Assembly (NCBI GenBank): GCA_019695345.1
Contig: JAIBAE010000041.1
Location: 1-37,707 of the forward strand
Source of the DNA: Bacteroidota bacterium
GTDB lineage: Bacteria > Bacteroidota > Ignavibacteria > Kapaibacteriales > NICIL-2
Reading direction: 5' to 3'
DNA: 37,707 nucleotides
Numbering within the stretch: position 1 is the stretch's first letter; each line of letters opens with the position of its first letter. The notes below the pieces were generated by a model. That model was not told where the DNA came from. It saw only the letters and a list, made by a program, of their open reading frames with translations, and searched no databases. Shown here piece by piece: positions 10,268 to 32,222 of the stretch. A program made the translations under genes and the position numbers.

Positions 10268-10322
10268 CCGGCAATTTGAGGTTGTTTTGTTGTTGAGACT
10301 CGGTGCCGTCATGCGATAGCAG
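10268..10322 (+). repeat. Interspersed repeat family M, copy 3
   Basis: CGGCA (10269-10273) pairs with TGCCG (10304-10308); tail TCATGCGATAGCA. It ends one base before the stop codon of the minus-strand gene at 10324. Confidence 0.78.
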
Positions 10323-10323
10323 A

Positions 10324-11970
10324 TTATTCACCAATTACCAACAACAATTTTTCCGAATGTGTTTGTTGCGTTGATTCATCTACTGCTTCCATTAACACAA
10401 TGTATGCGCCCGATGCAAGTGCAAAGTTCACATCGTTTCTTCCATCCCACACAAATGTTCCGGTTGCTCCTGTAAAGTGATTGTTGAGCAGTGTTTTTAC
10501 CTGCATTCCATTTACATCGAATACCGTTGCTGTTATATGCGCTTGCTTGAATGGCAATGAGTAAGAGCAAATTGTACTTTGTTTTGCGCCAACTGTACTT
10601 CTGGGTGAAAATGGATTTGGAGTTGCTGTTAATGTTGTTGTGGTTGGGAGTTCTCGAGCTACACTGTTAATTACGGCTGGCGTAGCTCCTTCTGTAAGCG
10701 CGCAAGTCGTCCAGGAACTTTGTGAGTTTGATGGCAACATGGGGGAAAGTTTTTCGAGTGATTTTCCTTTTGTAGTTGGTATATCCGTTAAGTGCCACTT
10801 ACTACTGTAATACAAGTAATCAATCTCTTTGTTATACGGAGTACGCAGGGTAATTGCATCGCCATCGCTGTTTAGAGAAAATGATGACTTTTGTACTGCA
10901 ACATTTGATTGAATTCGTAGCAAAGGAAATTGCGTTAGGAATGATGAATCGGTTGCTATTACACAATACCCTTTAGGTGGTGCATGGAGTTGTGATGTAA
11001 TTGATAATGCTGTTGTGGATGCATCGTGAATGTCCATTCCTTGCAGGTTAAGTGTATCTGTTGTTGTGTTGTAAAACTCGATAAACTCACTTCCTCCTGA
11101 TTGCGGGTCGAACATAAACTCGTTTACCAACAAGGCACCAACTGGTGGCGAAATAAACACAGTGGTTGCAATGGTGTCATTGGTGTGGCGAACATCATTA
11201 GCGGCTGAAACAAAGAGTACAAGCGGTGTGTAGCCGTATTTCTTGGTAGTGGAATAGAGGGAGTCAATACTAAGAGTAAATAAAACAGAATCACCTGATA
11301 CAAGTGTTTGATGACTAAACTGATGTAACGTAGTCTGTTGGTATTGAACTGAAGTAGTAAGCGATGCAATTGATGACTTACCACTATTTTGAACAAAGAT
11401 TCGCAACGTAGATGTTGAAGAGTCAATCTCCAGACGTGATAACTTGGCATCTACATCGGTTGGTGCTACGCTATTGGTAAACCCACACGTGGCACTATCG
11501 GGATGCTCGCATCGTTTAAGATTAGCATTACTTAAAGCAGGTAACATTGGGTCAACACGTTCAATGGAGATGCCTTGCGCGCTCCATTTTACATCGTAAT
11601 AGATTGAATCAATTATTAATGAATCTTTTGTTGTTAGATACACCGACTCGGTTGTGTTGTTGAGCGATGGCAAAGAGATTTTATAGACAGGTACTTCTTG
11701 TGGGATTATGCGCCGTTCAAGCAACGCTCCCGAATCTTTAACCAATATGGCTAAGCCCTTTGGTTGTAGAGTGATTTCAGTAATGGCGGCACGGGAAGTT
11801 TTATCGCGAAGATAAATGTTCTTTAATGTAACGGCAGTATCCTGCGGATTAAACAACTCAACCCATTCAGGTTCGTTGCCAACAGGGTAGGGTTGAATTT
11901 CGTTGATAACAATTTGAGAATAAGCAATACTGTTAATAAACACGAGCAAGAAAAAAGCAAGAGATTTCAT
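10324..11970 (-). CDS. Secreted protein with two lamin-tail domains and a FlgD-like C-terminal domain
   Basis: 548 residues. Signal peptide MKSLAFFLLVFINSIAYS, then a lamin-tail domain (about 19-130: IVINEIQPYP...EWVELFNP), a middle beta-rich stretch, a second lamin-tail domain (about 280-390: LVNEFMFDPQSGGSEFIEFYN), and a C-terminal FlgD-Ig-like domain (about 445-548: ATPNPFSP, TATVFDVNGMQVKTLL, WDGRNDVN, ASGAYIVLMEA). This last type of domain is found at the end of many T9SS-exported proteins in the Bacteroidota/Ignavibacteriota group, so export to the surface is likely (inference). Function is probably structural or adhesive. The start lies 8 bases after the stop of the msrC-like gene, so the two are probably cotranscribed. 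Confidence 0.85.
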   Translation of the reverse strand: MKSLAFFLLVFINSIAYSQIVINEIQPYPVGNEPEWVELFNPQDTAVTLKNIYLRDKTSRAAITEITLQPKGLAILVKDSGALLERRIIPQEVPVYKISLPSLNNTTESVYLTTKDSLIIDSIYYDVKWSAQGISIERVDPMLPALSNANLKRCEHPDSATCGFTNSVAPTDVDAKLSRLEIDSSTSTLRIFVQNSGKSSIASLTTSVQYQQTTLHQFSHQTLVSGDSVLFTLSIDSLYSTTKKYGYTPLVLFVSAANDVRHTNDTIATTVFISPPVGALLVNEFMFDPQSGGSEFIEFYNTTTDTLNLQGMDIHDASTTALSITSQLHAPPKGYCVIATDSSFLTQFPLLRIQSNVAVQKSSFSLNSDGDAITLRTPYNKEIDYLYYSSKWHLTDIPTTKGKSLEKLSPMLPSNSQSSWTTCALTEGATPAVINSVARELPTTTTLTATPNPFSPRSTVGAKQSTICSYSLPFKQAHITATVFDVNGMQVKTLLNNHFTGATGTFVWDGRNDVNFALASGAYIVLMEAVDESTQQTHSEKLLLVIGE

Positions 11971-12499: not shown

Positions 12500-12688
12500 T
12501 CAATGCAAGTGTTGAGTGTCTTCTTTTGTATTTGCCAATCGAACTGCTTCCACGAACTTACCTTCCTTAAAAAGTTCGCCAATTCGGTTAGCTTTTTCAT
12601 TTAATACATTCATATCGTTGTTAGAATCAAATAATATTTGTTCTCTGATTCTGTGTATATCTTCGATAATTTGTTCTGACTCTTTCAT
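12500..12688 (-). CDS. Small partner of the PIN-domain toxin, putative antitoxin
   Basis: 62 residues, mostly helical and charged: IIEDIHRIREQI, then NEKANRIGELFKEGKFVEAV. The opening pattern (I-x-E-x-I-x-x-I-R-x-x) is one I associate with small proteins encoded next to PIN proteins of this type, which supports a toxin-antitoxin pair. Its ATG overlaps the toxin stop by 4 bases (ATGA), so the two are translationally coupled, with the toxin gene first. No DNA-binding fold is recognisable, so autoregulation is uncertain. Confidence 0.65.
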   Translation of the reverse strand: MKESEQIIEDIHRIREQILFDSNNDMNVLNEKANRIGELFKEGKFVEAVRLANTKEDTQHLH

Positions 12689-13161
12689 GGTTTCTCCATT
12701 AGTTCTTCAGGGGATAATATACGAGGTGTTTTAAGATTGTTTTCTAGATTTATTTTTTCAATCAATTTCCTAACATGCTCATTAACAATATGTTTAAAGT
12801 TCCATGAAACTATGTAGTCTATGTTGTGATGTACTGCTACAGCTAAATGAGCTGCATCAACTTTCGACTTTTCAGGAATAGGCAGTTCAGTAAAGTATAG
12901 ATTTGCTAATAAATCAGTTTCATTGCTGATGGGTAATAGTGGCAAGCCTTGAACCGATTCAAGCCTCTTTACGGAAGCGTACAAATCACCTCGGGAAATT
13001 TCTGTTACTACATAATTTGAGATATAACAATCATAGTAATCTTTATAATTCTCCCACCAATCATAAGTAGTCTGCTGATGACCGGCAATCACAACGTTAT
13101 TACTAGGTCTGCTACAGTAATAACTAATTACACTTGTTTCTATGTAAACTGTTGGTTTCAT
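12685..13161 (-). CDS. PIN-domain ribonuclease toxin (VapC-like)
   Basis: 158 residues from the ATG at 13161, which directly gives MKPTVYIETSVISYY. PIN-fold acidic residues: E8 (YIETSV, where many VapC have Asp), E54 (VVTEISRG), D102 (KVDAAHLAVA) and the closing strand DYIVSWNFKHI, where N121 stands in for the usual fourth Asp. Family members cleave RNA and are held inactive by a small antitoxin. The reading frame is open further upstream to 13299, but that extension lacks family residues. Gene order toxin-antitoxin is the reverse of classical vapBC. Catalytic substitutions are common in this subgroup, so activity cannot be judged. Confidence 0.85.
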   Translation of the reverse strand: MKPTVYIETSVISYYCSRPSNNVVIAGHQQTTYDWWENYKDYYDCYISNYVVTEISRGDLYASVKRLESVQGLPLLPISNETDLLANLYFTELPIPEKSKVDAAHLAVAVHHNIDYIVSWNFKHIVNEHVRKLIEKINLENNLKTPRILSPEELMEKP

Positions 13162-13355
13162 TAGTACAAAAGTAGAGTGTGGAAAGTTCGTGTGCAATAG
13201 TTGATTTAATGTGTTGTAGATTTGACCATTGGTTCTCTGCTCCAAACCGTAATGCATTATACAACCAATGCGTTGCATGGATAGAACCGTCAGTTTCAAT
13301 GTACCATTTCTGTGGGACGCACACGATAACCACTGTTGAATAAACAGACAATCTT

Positions 13356-15474: not shown

Positions 15475-15537
15475 GCTAACAGTATTTCACAGCGTTCAGC
15501 GCGGCAACCCAGTCCGAACCGAGCGTTTGGTTGAAAG
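15475..15537 (+). repeat. Repeat family C, left copy flanking hicBA
   Basis: Contains CACAGCGTTCAGCGCGGCAA and CGAACCGAGCG. It matches 16084-16145 with about five differences over 61 bases in the same orientation. Confidence 0.88.
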
Positions 15538-15600: not shown

Positions 15601-15810
15601 ATGAGTACTGAGTTAATTTTTCAAGTTGAAGAATCGCCGGAAGGTGGCTTTGAAGCAAGTGCCTTAGGCGAATCAATATTTACAGTTGGAAACACAATAG
15701 ATGAACTTCGTGCTAATATTCGTGAAGCTGTTGAATGCCATTTTGACGAAGATGTAAAGCCCAAAATAATACGATTGCATTTTGTACGCGACGAAGTTTT
15801 TGTGCTATGA
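15601..15810 (+). CDS. hicB: HicB-like antitoxin
   Basis: 69 residues of the partial-RNase-H-fold HicB family: LIFQVEESPEGGFEASALGESIFT, then TIDELRANIREAVECHFDED and the end PKIIRLHFVRDEVFVL. It would bind and block the HicA RNase encoded next to it. There is no C-terminal DNA-binding domain, as in the short HicB form. Its TGA stop overlaps the hicA ATG by 4 bases (ATGA), so translation is coupled. The module sits between two direct copies of repeat C. Confidence 0.85.
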   Translation: MSTELIFQVEESPEGGFEASALGESIFTVGNTIDELRANIREAVECHFDEDVKPKIIRLHFVRDEVFVL

Positions 15811-16049
15811 AAATTCCTCGGGATATATCTGGAAGGAAGTTTATTCGATTACTTGCGAAGTACGAATATGAAGTTACTCGTCAGGTTGGCTCGCATATTC
15901 GTTTGACGACCCATCGTAATGGCACTCATCATATAACGTAGCCAAATCATAATCCTATCAGAATTGGCACTCTGAATTCTATACTTCAAAGCATCTCACT
16001 TCATCTTAACAAAACAAAATCAGAAATAATTGATGAACTCTTTACTTAA
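15807..16049 (+). pseudogene. hicA: HicA mRNA interferase toxin, interrupted by an in-frame TAG
   Basis: The frame starts with MKIPRDISGRKFIRLL and KYEYEVTRQVGSHIRLTT, which is a typical HicA double-stranded-RNA-binding fold with the catalytic histidine (H30 in GSHIRL). At codon 45 (15939-15941) there is TAG, right after HHIT, where the family continues with I/V-PNHNP. The same frame then goes on with PNHNPIRIGTLNSIL and ends at TAA (16047-16049) after 80 codons, the normal HicA length. So the second half is still conserved but lies behind a nonsense codon. A 44-residue product would lack the second half of the fold and is probably inactive. The gene is too short in either part to be obvious as an open frame. 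Confidence 0.85.
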
Positions 16050-16083: not shown

Positions 16084-16145
16084 ATCTAACAGTAATTCAC
16101 AGCGTTCAGCGCGGCAACCCTGTACGAACCGAGCGTTGGTGGAAA
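16084..16145 (+). repeat. Repeat family C, right copy flanking hicBA
   Basis: Direct repeat of 15475-15537, starting at TCTAACAGTAATTCAC. The two copies are 609 bases apart and enclose hicB and hicA only. Confidence 0.88.
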
Positions 16146-16262: not shown

Positions 16263-16874
16263 ATGGGTAATTCTGCGTTCAAGTTGTTCGTATCATTTAT
16301 AATAATGATTTTTATATCATCATGTCAATCACTTAGAGATAAAAGTATTAGTTTACAAAAAAGTTATGAGGAAAGAGTTTTAGTAATTAAAAACCAGTTG
16401 TTAAAAGAATCCAAGGACTATTTTCAAATCTCATCAAATCATTCACCAATAATGTTTCGATGTTTTGACTTTACACTTTTTCTTGTTAATAATAAGCAGG
16501 ACTCTACTGTATCAGTTATCAAATTGAACTGTGACAATACAATTGAATCTAAACATGATTATGATCTATGGAAAAAGTACTCTATTCTATTTTTAGGATT
16601 GAATAGTTATAATTGTTGGAAAGATACTGCAATTGAGCTTTCTCCGGATCAATGGCCAAATACATTTACTATTATCAAGTTTCAAAACAACATTTTAGAT
16701 TCGTCGGTTACATTTGAAGATCAATGGGTGCAATCCTATTATTTCGATTCAACAAGGTATGCTAATGATCTTGCAATAAATTATGCAAAGTCAGTTTATC
16801 GCGTACAAGAATCAAAGATTCTATCACAGCTTACATATGATCTTGTTTGGGGAGAATTAAAAAATGTTAGATAA
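16263..16874 (+). CDS. Hypothetical lipoprotein
   Basis: 203 residues. Signal peptide with lipobox FISSC (C21), so probably a membrane-anchored lipoprotein. The rest is a charged, aromatic-rich globular stretch with no motif I recognise (pieces such as DLWKKYSILFLGLNSYNCW and SPDQWPNTFTIIKF). A good ribosome binding site (AGGGGTGG) precedes the ATG. The gene is distinctly AT-rich compared with ligA and gcvP on either side, as for the other orphan genes of the window, which suggests a lineage-specific or acquired gene. Confidence 0.7.
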   Translation: MGNSAFKLFVSFIIMIFISSCQSLRDKSISLQKSYEERVLVIKNQLLKESKDYFQISSNHSPIMFRCFDFTLFLVNNKQDSTVSVIKLNCDNTIESKHDYDLWKKYSILFLGLNSYNCWKDTAIELSPDQWPNTFTIIKFQNNILDSSVTFEDQWVQSYYFDSTRYANDLAINYAKSVYRVQESKILSQLTYDLVWGELKNVR

Positions 16875-22065: not shown

Positions 22066-22137
22066 CGCGATGCTGTAACGCTGTTTCCCGACCGGGTTGC
22101 GGCGCAGTATTGTTCGCTTCGGCAGTGGCTGGGACCA
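22066..22137 (+). repeat. Interspersed repeat family B, copy 2
   Basis: Contains TTTCCCGACCGGGTTGCGGC, GCGCAGTATTG and GCTTCGGCAG in the family order. Nearly the mirror of copy 1. Confidence 0.82.
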
Positions 22138-25212: not shown

Positions 25213-25284
25213 TTCCCACATCTGCCGAAGCAAGCCATACTGCGCCGTCACACGGGCGGGGGATAGCGTTACAACGGCGCGGGT
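25213..25284 (-). repeat. Interspersed repeat family B, copy 3
   Basis: On the minus strand: GTTGTAACGCTATCCC, a diverged core, then GACGGCGCAGTATGG and TGCTTCGGCAGA. The core differs from copies 1, 2 and 4. Confidence 0.72.
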
Positions 25285-25415: not shown

Positions 25416-25488
25416 CTGCGAAGCTGTAACGTTCGTTCCCGACCGGGTTACGGCGCAGAAGGATTGCTTCGGCAGAGGAGGGAAACCC
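25416..25488 (+). repeat. Interspersed repeat family B, copy 4
   Basis: CTGCGAAGCTGTAACG, TTCCCGACCGGGTTACGGCG, then ATTGCTTCGGCAGAGG. The outer ends CTGCGAAGC and GCTTCGGCAG pair with one bulge. Confidence 0.82.
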
Positions 25489-25613: not shown

Positions 25614-25700
25614 GGAAGGTTGCAAGAGCGGTTTAATTGGCACGCCTGGAAAGCGTGTGTACTCGAAAGGGTACCGAGAGTTCGAATCTCTCACCTTCCG
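25614..25700 (+). tRNA. tRNA-Ser (anticodon GGA)
   Basis: 87 bases. Acceptor stem GGAAGGT (25614-25620) pairs with ACCTTCC (25693-25699), discriminator G. The anticodon loop CTGGAAA between CACGC and GCGTG gives anticodon GGA, reading UCC/UCU. A long variable arm (TGTAC ... GGTAC region) is as expected for serine. The T loop is TTCGAAT. CCA is not encoded and must be added after transcription. Confidence 0.95.
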
Positions 25701-25742
25701 CTTCTCTCTCTACATACCATACACACGAAGCATTTTCGTATA

Positions 25743-26403: not shown

Positions 26404-27657
26404 ATGAACATGGATTGTAGTTTCTATCGAACAAACAGAGCATTTGTTTTTACTATTGTTATTGTATTTAGCACCTTGTTGTTCTCGTGTGGGAAAGGTG
26501 AAAGCACGCCATCTAATACAATTACTTTTTGGCACTTCTGGAGCGAGCCATCGCAACGTGCAGCTTTGCAACAAATGATTGCAGAGTTCGAAAAACAAAA
26601 CAACTGTAAAGTTGAAGTAACGGAACTTAGTTGGAACGATGGCAAAACAAAATTACTTGCTGCGTTTAATTCAAAAACCGCACCCGATGTAATGGAATTT
26701 GGGAGCGACTGGGTAGCGCAGTTTTCCAGCAGTGGAGTGTTAAAGGAAATTCCAAAAGACCTAGCACATTTGGATAACTTTATTGAGTGGTCAACACAAC
26801 CATGTATGTGGAAGGATAAAATTTACGCAATGCCGTGGGTGGTAGATACACGAGTGTTGTATGTAAACAAGGCGTTATTAGAACAAGCCGGAATAAACGG
26901 TATGCCCGCTACTATGAATGATGTGCTAATCATGAGTGAGAAAGTTCAGGCAGAAAGTGGTAACAACGGTTTTGGCGCCAATGGTGCCGACCCACATAAA
27001 GTGTATAAAAAGATATTACCATTTTTCTGGAGTAACGGTGGCGATGTGTTTAACACGTCCGGTGGTTGCGTAATTAACTCACCGGAAAACATTGCCGCAT
27101 TAGAACTCTATGTGCAGTTATCGCGCGCAGGATTGATAGACACGCAAAAACAACTCGATGCAGCATTTGCACAAGGTAAACTTGCGTTTTGGAATTCAGG
27201 CGGATGGCTTGCCGATAAAATAGGAAGAGAAAATCCGTTGCTCGATTATACTGTAATTCCACTTCCAGCAATTGCAGGTGAGCACGGTACTTCATTTGCA
27301 GGTGGTGAATATCTTTCCATCAATGCCGCCACAGAAAAGCAAGAGTTAGCAACAAAGCTTTTGCAATACCTTACAAATGGTAAAACCGCGCTTGGCTTCT
27401 GCAAACAAATCACCGAAGCAGGTTTCCCTGCCGATAAGGTTGCATTTAAGGATACCTACTTTGCGTCGCATCCAATCCGCAGTATTTTTTCTAAGCAGTT
27501 ACAAAACGCAAAGATGACTCCTGTCCATGCAAAGTGGCTGGATGTTGAAGTTGTGATTGAAAACGCTGTGGTTGATGCTCTGTACGGCAACAAAACCCCC
27601 GAGCAAGCATTAAACGATGCTGCATATTTGATATCTAAATTAAAGCCGGCAATGTAG
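26404..27657 (+). CDS. Extracellular solute-binding lipoprotein (family 1, sugar type)
   Basis: 417 residues. Lipobox LLFSC (C29), then the family-1 pattern: ITFWHFWSEPSQRAALQQMIAEFEKQN, TAPDVMEFGSDWVAQFSSSGVLKEI, YAMPWVVDTRVLYVNKALLEQAG, FAQGKLAFWNSGGWLADKI, and GGEYLSINAATEKQELATKLLQYL. Such proteins bind sugars or glycerol phosphates for an ABC importer. No permease or ATPase gene is near, so its transporter must be elsewhere or the protein acts alone. It lies just behind the ECF sigma gene and may be cotranscribed. A second ATG at 26410 is equally possible as start. Confidence 0.9.
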   Translation: MNMDCSFYRTNRAFVFTIVIVFSTLLFSCGKGESTPSNTITFWHFWSEPSQRAALQQMIAEFEKQNNCKVEVTELSWNDGKTKLLAAFNSKTAPDVMEFGSDWVAQFSSSGVLKEIPKDLAHLDNFIEWSTQPCMWKDKIYAMPWVVDTRVLYVNKALLEQAGINGMPATMNDVLIMSEKVQAESGNNGFGANGADPHKVYKKILPFFWSNGGDVFNTSGGCVINSPENIAALELYVQLSRAGLIDTQKQLDAAFAQGKLAFWNSGGWLADKIGRENPLLDYTVIPLPAIAGEHGTSFAGGEYLSINAATEKQELATKLLQYLTNGKTALGFCKQITEAGFPADKVAFKDTYFASHPIRSIFSKQLQNAKMTPVHAKWLDVEVVIENAVVDALYGNKTPEQALNDAAYLISKLKPAM

Positions 27658-27660
27658 TTT

Positions 27661-27715
27661 TTGCTAACGCATGACGGCACCGTACCGCCACGTATAAACA
27701 ACCGTGTTGTGCCGG
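27661..27715 (-). repeat. Interspersed repeat family M, copy 7
   Basis: Arms CGGCAC (27675-27680) and GTGCCG (27709-27714). The conserved end TTGCTAACGCATGACGGCAC begins 3 bases after the stop of the solute-binding protein gene. Confidence 0.82.
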
Positions 27716-28558: not shown

Positions 28559-28587
28559 AAAAGGGGTAATGAACATTACCCCTTTTT
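28559..28587. terminator. Bidirectional terminator between convergent genes
   Basis: AAAAGGGGTAAT pairs with ATTACCCCTTTT around the loop GAAC. A and T runs on both sides let it serve the plus-strand lipoprotein and the minus-strand SBBP gene. Confidence 0.9.
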
Positions 28588-28601
28588 ATTTTGCTGACGT
28601 T

Positions 28602-28623
28602 CGGTGCCGTCATGCGATAGCAA
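28602..28623 (+). repeat. Interspersed repeat family M, copy 8 (conserved end only)
   Basis: CGGTGCCGTCATGCGATAGC, followed by AAA. It ends 3 bases before the stop codon of the minus-strand gene at 28627. The partner arm is unclear because the terminator lies where the body should be. Confidence 0.7.
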
Positions 28624-28626
28624 ATG

Positions 28627-31600
28627 TTACTTTACTAATACTACCTGATAACGATACCACGAGGTACCCATCTGGAAGCGAACAAAGTACAAACCTGTTG
28701 TTGCCTCAAGAGGAGTGATACTAATACAATCCGGACTTATGGTAGATTGAGTAGAAGGTATTACTACACCTTGGATGTTACACACTTCCAAATTCTTAAT
28801 GTTCTCAGTCATGTTTGTTTTGTTGCAAACTTGAATCTGTGATTGAGTCGGGTTTGGATAAACAATCCAGTCTGCATTACTACTGTAATCGGGAACACTA
28901 CTTGTTGTAACCGATAAGGTAGATTCATCGGATGTATCTATACCACAATTGTTTGCGATAATAACTCGATACTTACCTTCATCAAATTTTTGAGTTGTGT
29001 TAATAGTATAGGTTGTGCTATTGGGTGCGTTGGTAATGTTAACCCAAGCCGCACCTTTTTTCACTTGCCATTTATAATCTATGGCAGTTGCATTTGTTTG
29101 TACAGTAAACTCTGCTTTTGTGCCTTCAAATGCCGTAACATCTTTTAGGTTAGTTATAAATTGAGGTGCAGGGTTTACCGTTACAACCATATTGCCGGAA
29201 GCCAACCCAGTTGTACACCCGGCTGTGATTTTTACTGCATACGTTCCGGCTGTTGAGTTGTCAACTTGAGAGACTGAGTAGATGGCGTTTGTAGCACCAT
29301 CAATGTTGCTGTTATTCTTCGTCCATTGATATTTTACATCCGAGCCATCCACCGAGACTACTAAACGCATCAATGTGTTTTGGCAAAGAGTCGTGTCGCT
29401 AGACTGTGATGTTATAGTTGCTGCTTTACGAATGGTAAATGGTGCAGGATTCAGGATTGCAAAGCCCGTAGCATTGTGCGTAACACGTACTCTGTAGTTT
29501 GTTGAACCTGTTTGGGTATTAGGAATAATCCAGTTGTAGTTCTTTGCAACAACATTGTTTTTTACTACCTGCCATGTTGCTCCGTTATCGGGGGAGACTT
29601 CGATTGTGTAAGAATCAGTGGATGCAAAATTTGAAACATCCCAAAGTATATTTATAGGTGTTCCGGCACATGGTTTATCGGTAGCAACAGGTGTATTCAC
29701 CTTAAACGATGAGTAAGTGTATTTAGCAACGTATCCATCGCTGATACCATTCATGTTTTGTTGGTACGGTAAGCCGGGTGTTGGTAAACCATTTGATGTT
29801 GTTACACCTGCCACGTACGACACCATGCCGTTTGTTGCAACAACCGAACGTAGTTCATCGTTGCCTGTTCCGCCAAGGTAGGAGCTGTAAAATACTGTGC
29901 TATATCCAATGCTTGCAATAAAACCATCACCTCCCAATTTGTTCTCAGCCTGCCCGGCATCGTTAGTAACAGGGAAGTTGTTAGATGTTGTTTTTCCTGC
30001 TACAATCAGGTTGGTGCCATCAAACTTTAAATCTAAAATTGCATCGTCGCCATCGCCGCCAAAATAGGTTGTATAGTTAAACAGTTTACCTTCTAAATCT
30101 GTCCCGCATAAAAATCCATCCTTGCCATTTTTCTTTCCCTGTGGAAGGTTCCGAATAAGATTAAGATTGCTAGAAGATGTCGTCCCACCGATAATTGGTT
30201 TACTGCCATTATCAACATAAATAGTATATCCTGTTTCATCGCCATTACCGCCAAAGTATGTACCAAGTACAAGTTTACTGCCTAAGCCATTAAAGCGAGC
30301 AATAAAGGCATCGGTGGTTGCTGTTGCACCTGTTCCATTTATTTTTGTTTGGGCACAATTTGGGTTACCCCACCAATCTGCCGGTGCCAACGGTAAGTCT
30401 GCACTTTTGGTTTCGCCTGTTACAAATGCTTCATTCTCTGCCGTTACCGAGGAAGCTATATCTAAACATCGGTCTCTTCCTGTACCACCATAAAATGTTG
30501 AATACGCCAATTGGTTGGTCGATGCTATACATGCTACAAAGCCGTCTCCCTGACCACTATAAGTTGTTTTAAATGAACCTACTTTAATCATCATGTTCGA
30601 TGAAAACGTTTCCCCACAGAAGTAAATGCTGTTCTGGTCGTCGGTAATTACACCATATGCTCTGTCATCTTCGGCACCGCCAAAATATGTACCGTATAAA
30701 AGTGTTGTTCCGGCATTATTCAGCTTTGCAATAAATGCATCTGTCTTCCCTAAGTTATTTTGGCTTAAAAACCCCGTGGTAGTTGGGAAGTTAGTGGAGG
30801 ATGTTTCGCCTACTACAATTATGTTTTTATTATCATCGGTTGATAAACACACATCATACGCTTTGTCTGTACCCGACCCACCAAAGTATGTTGCAAAAAG
30901 TAGTGTGTTAAAGGAATTATCAAACTTTGCAACAAACACATCCTCGTTACCACTGACTGGTGATGTATATGTGCCGGTAGTTTTGGGGAAGGTTGATGCC
31001 GTTGTATATCCTACAACAATTACATCACCGTTATTAGGCATTTGCTTAACAGCATTGATTTCTTCGTAGCCATCAGTGCCCAGATAGGTAGCAAACACAG
31101 TAGGGTCAATAATCAACTCTTGATTTTTATTATAGGCACCAACTTTAAATTGTACTGTACTGCCGTTAATTTGTAACGAACATTGAACGGGCTTTGTTTG
31201 TAAAATTCCATCTTGCTGATATGCCTTTAGGCTACCTTGTTGAATAACCCCGCATGAGGTTTTAATTGCTAACACTTCGCTGTTAATGTATTCTAACGAA
31301 GTTGCCCCGGTATATCGTACTGAAATATTCCGCACATCTGTGTTTGGTTTTACTATAAAATCAAACCGAGGTTTTCCATTATCGGTTGTAAACAGTACGC
31401 TGTACCCTTTATCTGTTTCAAGTGCAACAGATTTAAACGAAGCTGCATTTGTTATCCACTTGGATGATGAATTTCCAATAACGTAATTATACGTTGATAC
31501 GCACTGTTGCTGAGGTATGTATGATGTTATAGCAGCACCTGCAAAGTCCATCCGAACACAGTGCTTTTGTAGTATCATTTCGTCGGTTAGTTCTTCCTTC

Positions 31601-32152: not shown

Positions 32153-32222
32153 TGCGCAGCAGAAGGATTGTTCCCGCCTGTGTGCCGGCGCTGTAGGATT
32201 GCTTCGGAAGAGGAGTTAAACC
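32153..32222 (+). repeat. Interspersed repeat family B, copy 5
   Basis: TTGCGCAGCAG, TTCCCGCCTGTGTGCCGGCG, GGATTGCTTCGGAAGAGG. More diverged than copies 1, 2 and 4 but in the same order. Confidence 0.7.

Follow-up and report, generated by a model that had tools for sequence, protein, structure and literature searches.

Class 2 loci are the commonest bicistronic form of the hicBA toxin-antitoxin module, and in these loci a small HicB without a DNA-binding domain is encoded upstream of hicA (PMC10865869). Antitoxins also occur alone: solitary hicB genes are mentioned in the same work, and a Klebsiella survey described degraded toxin-antitoxin pairs as one source of orphan antitoxins (PMC7192599). 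We analysed a 37,707-nucleotide stretch of DNA from a Bacteroidota bacterium (hereafter the window) that carries a hicBA locus with the Class 2 arrangement, in which hicB precedes and overlaps hicA and encodes a small HicB lacking a DNA-binding domain. The gene sizes are likewise those of Class 2, with 69 residues for HicB relative to a range of 63-103 codons, and 80 codons for hicA relative to a typical 60-85 residues (PMC10865869). What sets the window apart from Class 2 pairs is an internal stop in its toxin gene, which leaves the pair non-functional as it stands; a functional type II toxin-antitoxin pair has both genes intact, and here hicA is interrupted by TAG at codon 45. The locus thereby resembles orphan and solitary antitoxins in having an intact antitoxin without a functional toxin, but differs from them in that the remnant toxin is recognisable over its whole length (PMC7192599, PMC10865869). 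Overall, we consider it very probable that this is a minimal Class 2 hicBA pair with a recently inactivated toxin gene, an ordinary disarmed locus.

The antitoxin gene, hicB (15601..15810, plus strand, as are all hicBA features given below), is an open frame encoding an intact minimal antitoxin of 69 residues. In a 15-row alignment of the window HicB and 14 relatives, every invariant column of the family is kept, which bears out the claim of a sequence-only reading of this DNA that HicB is intact. The hicB stop and hicA start share the four bases ATGA (15807..15810), an overlap that likely couples translation of the two genes, and the hicB-then-hicA order is found in nearly all relatives. The Pfam family HicB_lk_antitox gave a weak match to the window HicB (E 0.012, below the cut-off) and the Pfam search yielded no further domain; a search of NCBIfam with HicB and HicA returned no family for either protein. 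The HicB family profile, 68 positions long, accounts for all 69 residues and matches T. thermophilus TTHA1756 (2yzt, 67 residues, E 0.00088), the nearest solved relative by sequence. Because this profile fills the whole of HicB, there is no room for a DNA-binding domain, and RHH, HTH and Phd domains were all absent from the Pfam and family-profile searches.

The frame at 15807-16049 translates as MKIPRDISGRKFIRLLAKYEYEVTRQVGSHIRLTTHRNGTHHIT, an internal stop, PNHNPIRIGTLNSILQSISLHLNKTKSEIIDELFT and a terminal TAA (16047-16049), corresponding to an 80-residue HicA with a single interruption. As translated, hicA covers 15807..15941, or 44 residues followed by the in-frame TAG of codon 45 (15939..15941), while the untranslated remainder (15942..16049) comprises 35 codons and TAA, is still conserved and encodes the closing portion of the fold, including both C-terminal helices. 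With the stop masked, Pfam HicA_toxin (PF07927) spans residues 9-62 across it at 46.4 bits against a cut-off of 27; the 44 residues upstream of TAG, taken alone, score 26.5 bits, slightly below that cut-off. A profile from 21 relatives aligns to residues 1-79. The catalytic His30 (15894..15896), within a GSHIR motif, is invariant in an alignment of 21 relatives, and it aligns with the position occupied by Ala in 4c26 and 6g26, structures of B. pseudomallei HicA in its inactive H24A form. The frame thus shows both marks of the HicA family, a profile score above the curated cut-off and a catalytic His in a GSH motif. These results uphold what had been read from the letters, namely an 80-residue HicA frame with catalytic His30, broken in frame at codon 45 and otherwise kept.

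A structure model of an intact HicA relative (pLDDT 94) places helices at residues 9-19, 53-67 and 71-79 and strands at 22-27, 30-35 and 41-46. The model matches HicA structures 1whz (TTHA1913; Z 9.3), 5yrz_B (8.1), 6g26_F (7.2) and 4p78_C (6.9). The fold of the intact relative and the position of its catalytic His are like those of these solved toxins (1whz, 5yrz_B, 6g26 and 4p78), whereas the window allele ends after codon 44, before the complete helix-strand-strand-strand-helix fold has been translated. According to the model, the fragment is predicted to retain the first helix, the first two strands and His30, whereas strand 3 would be cut short at its end and the two C-terminal helices would be missing. 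The 35 codons past TAG contain no in-frame ATG, GTG or TTG, so translation restart is not expected and was ruled out. Given the incomplete fold and the lack of a plausible restart codon, the 44-residue hicA product is almost certainly dead, with RNase inactivity predicted from the fold.

Over the 33 columns past TAG, the window scores 80.8 bits, compared with a mean of 72.3 for 42 intact relatives (sd 8.8, range 52.7-89.0), and by this measure the similarity is far beyond chance. Since conservation of the post-stop half matches that of intact relatives, the loss appears to be recent, and an old pseudogene is ruled out by the absence of excess decay past TAG. We simulated neutral decay, without indels, and counted runs that retained the window score with no further stop: 18% did so at 0.02 substitutions per site, 5% at 0.05, 0.3% at 0.10 and 0 of 4000 at 0.20. 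These values fit a recent hicA loss at roughly less than 0.1 substitutions per site, a bound that is rough because the window hicA is above average upstream of the stop as well, and its initial score may have been high. Continued constraint would also be compatible with the conserved post-stop half.

Loss of the toxin beside a retained antitoxin was found repeatedly among relatives. Across 395 genomes of the phylum, 27 loci belong clearly to this HicB family (E 1e-22 or better), and five of them, besides the window, have an intact HicB with hicA broken or missing. In three of these (G207, G235 and G079) hicA is frameshifted or partly deleted, and in two (G186 and G231) no hicA was found, which may mean that the genes were never paired; at a further locus (G104) both hicB and hicA are damaged. 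The family's other clear hicA genes (E 1e-20 or better), 20 in all, each adjoin an intact HicB. A second set, 31 loci fetched by similarity to the window hicA, includes two with intact HicB and broken hicA (L042 and L052), two with both genes broken (L045 and L051) and none in which hicA is intact and hicB broken. Leaving out the window, toxin-lost/antitoxin-kept loci number seven versus zero for the reverse (sign test, two-sided p = 0.016), although these events are not all independent, with G235, G079 and G104 belonging to one family. Partial second copies of hicB lie slightly downstream of the broken hicBA in G079 (locus L163) and in L051, a sign of tandem duplication and decay. For toxin-antitoxin pairs in general, losing the toxin first is harmless and losing the antitoxin first is not, and antitoxins left behind by degraded pairs are a familiar finding (PMC7192599). 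Judged from these genomes, loss of hicA with retention of hicB is a recurrent and ordinary end for such pairs, and the window locus offers a clean example of toxin-first decay.

The course of events at a pair disarmed in this way can be outlined. The hicBA locus most likely arrived as a complete module, because its relatives are scattered over phyla and because the locus (37% G+C) and its neighbour (29%) are poorer in G+C than the flanking ligA (44%) and gcvP (43%). Translation of hicB would pass into hicA by way of the ATGA overlap and halt at codon 45. After its arrival the module would have lost the toxin while HicB stayed, an order of decay that is safe for the cell. HicB would still be made if the operon is transcribed, now without its cognate partner, as a leftover or, at most and speculatively, as a free antidote to a related incoming HicA. 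Since it has no DNA-binding domain, HicB cannot autoregulate by the known route. An orphan role had been suggested for it from the sequence, and as far as that means a regulator the suggestion is not supported for so minimal a protein; the roles that remain are binding of another HicA, or none.

HicB might have been kept by selection as an orphan antidote that counters HicA toxins other than its own, serving anti-addiction or defence evasion. HicB is intact here and in the seven loci with broken or missing hicA, and orphan antitoxins have been proposed as anti-addiction modules (PMC7192599). However, after a recent death of hicA an intact hicB is expected even without selection, and the other hicBA of this genome, on contig C142, encodes a very different HicB and HicA, making cross-protection at home unlikely; as an account of this locus, we find selection for an antidote unlikely. 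A general form of the idea, that minimal non-DNA-binding hicBA pairs regularly lose the toxin first and that HicB is then selected as a free antidote against phage or plasmid HicA, with the window as a recent instance, strikes us as distinctly unlikely. If the toxin-first asymmetry of this small sample holds widely, it would bear on the status of solitary HicB proteins, as relics or as retained antidotes.

The origin of the TAG itself was considered at the level of codons. Position 45 is Ile in 42 of 50 relatives, Val in 6 and Leu in 2, and relative to TAG the codon differs at three bases in 48 relatives, at two bases in the other 2 and at one base in none. In light of this comparison, TAG is not a single step, whether a nonsense mutation or a miscalled base, from the conserved family codon. 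The sequence-only reading had offered a recent nonsense change that disarmed the toxin; the conserved post-stop half supports its recent inactivation, but a simple nonsense change is not supported because none of the 50 relatives lies one substitution from TAG. Possibly the ancestral codon was a rarer one, such as the Leu codon of 2 of the 50 relatives, or a complex change took place. Otherwise, a very recent loss fits awkwardly with a codon that differs from the usual one at all three bases. Copying of the flipped triplet from nearby DNA was rejected, as neither ACGTAGCC nor its reverse complement is repeated elsewhere in the window. Two tempting readings are corrected by this analysis, that the locus is one base away from a working hicA and that the remaining HicB acts as a regulator.

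The same comparison bears on whether hicA is intact in the organism and the TAG a product of sequencing or assembly. The draft genome consists of 163 contigs, and the half of hicA past TAG shows no decay, as would be expected of an error. A sequencing error had been proposed; an error of one base is nevertheless improbable, since none of the 50 relatives has a codon one substitution from TAG, and at least two bases would have to be wrong, unless the organism's actual codon is unusual for the family. Furthermore, the same type of damage is present in named isolates, Spirosoma fluviale (L042) and Moorella mulderi (L052). No other genome from this genus was found, and neither the relatives' genomes nor viral contigs contained an independent copy of the locus. 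We see little chance that the stop is an artefact.

Finally, UAG is read through at low background by near-cognate tRNAs, and the conserved half of hicA past TAG would be consistent with readthrough that makes a little full-length HicA, the stop acting as a damper on toxin dose. This possibility, also raised from the sequence, is extremely improbable, as TAG is an ordinary stop here (closing 5 of the window's 25 long frames, one of 1153 codons), none of 41 tRNAs carries a CTA anticodon, PylS falls far under its family cut-off (22.4 versus 178 bits) and the stops of broken relatives lie elsewhere. The tRNA count combines 40 found with RF00005 and then typed (150 of 236 candidates scored), none with CTA, and a tRNA-Ser (GGA) detected by ARAGORN at 25614-25701 of the window, which is absent from the RF00005 list and shows that list to be incomplete; reassignment of the stop was rejected within these limits of the tRNA scan. 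A conserved recoding site was rejected likewise, as stops in damaged hicA genes are scattered along the gene, at codons 19 (L042), 26 (L045), 22 together with a frameshift (L052), and 35 and 37 (G183).

A genome-wide search found the window HicA once, together with one other HicA, which is intact and lies on contig C142. There, an intact hicBA of another lineage (L122, G000 contig C142, 13200-14300) stands beside a YoeB toxin gene and likewise has an ATGA-type overlap. In the window, hicBA is bracketed by 52-base direct repeats (15476-15527 and 16086-16137, 49 of 52 bases identical) that are each other's closest copies. The core of this repeat occurs 21 times in the genome at three or fewer mismatches, mostly between genes, and the hicBA locus may have entered, or may exit, by recombination between such copies. 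DNA folding of the two repeats was no stronger than that of shuffles, so we refrain from describing them as hairpins. Promoter and terminator scans near hicBA were at chance level, and an Rfam scan of the window gave no family. A second repeat family of ~50 bases is present in both orientations at 2115-2167, 22077-22136, 25213-25260, 25428-25487 and 32163-32222, and a third, with core CGGTGCCGTCATGCG, in both orientations at 10282-10324, 27651-27685 and 28583-28633. Between hicBA and gcvP, 16263-16874 encodes a 203-residue protein with a lipoprotein-like N-terminus, 29% G+C and no Pfam match. Across ligA from hicBA, a PIN-domain protein is encoded at 12685-13299 on the minus strand and is possibly a VapC-type toxin.
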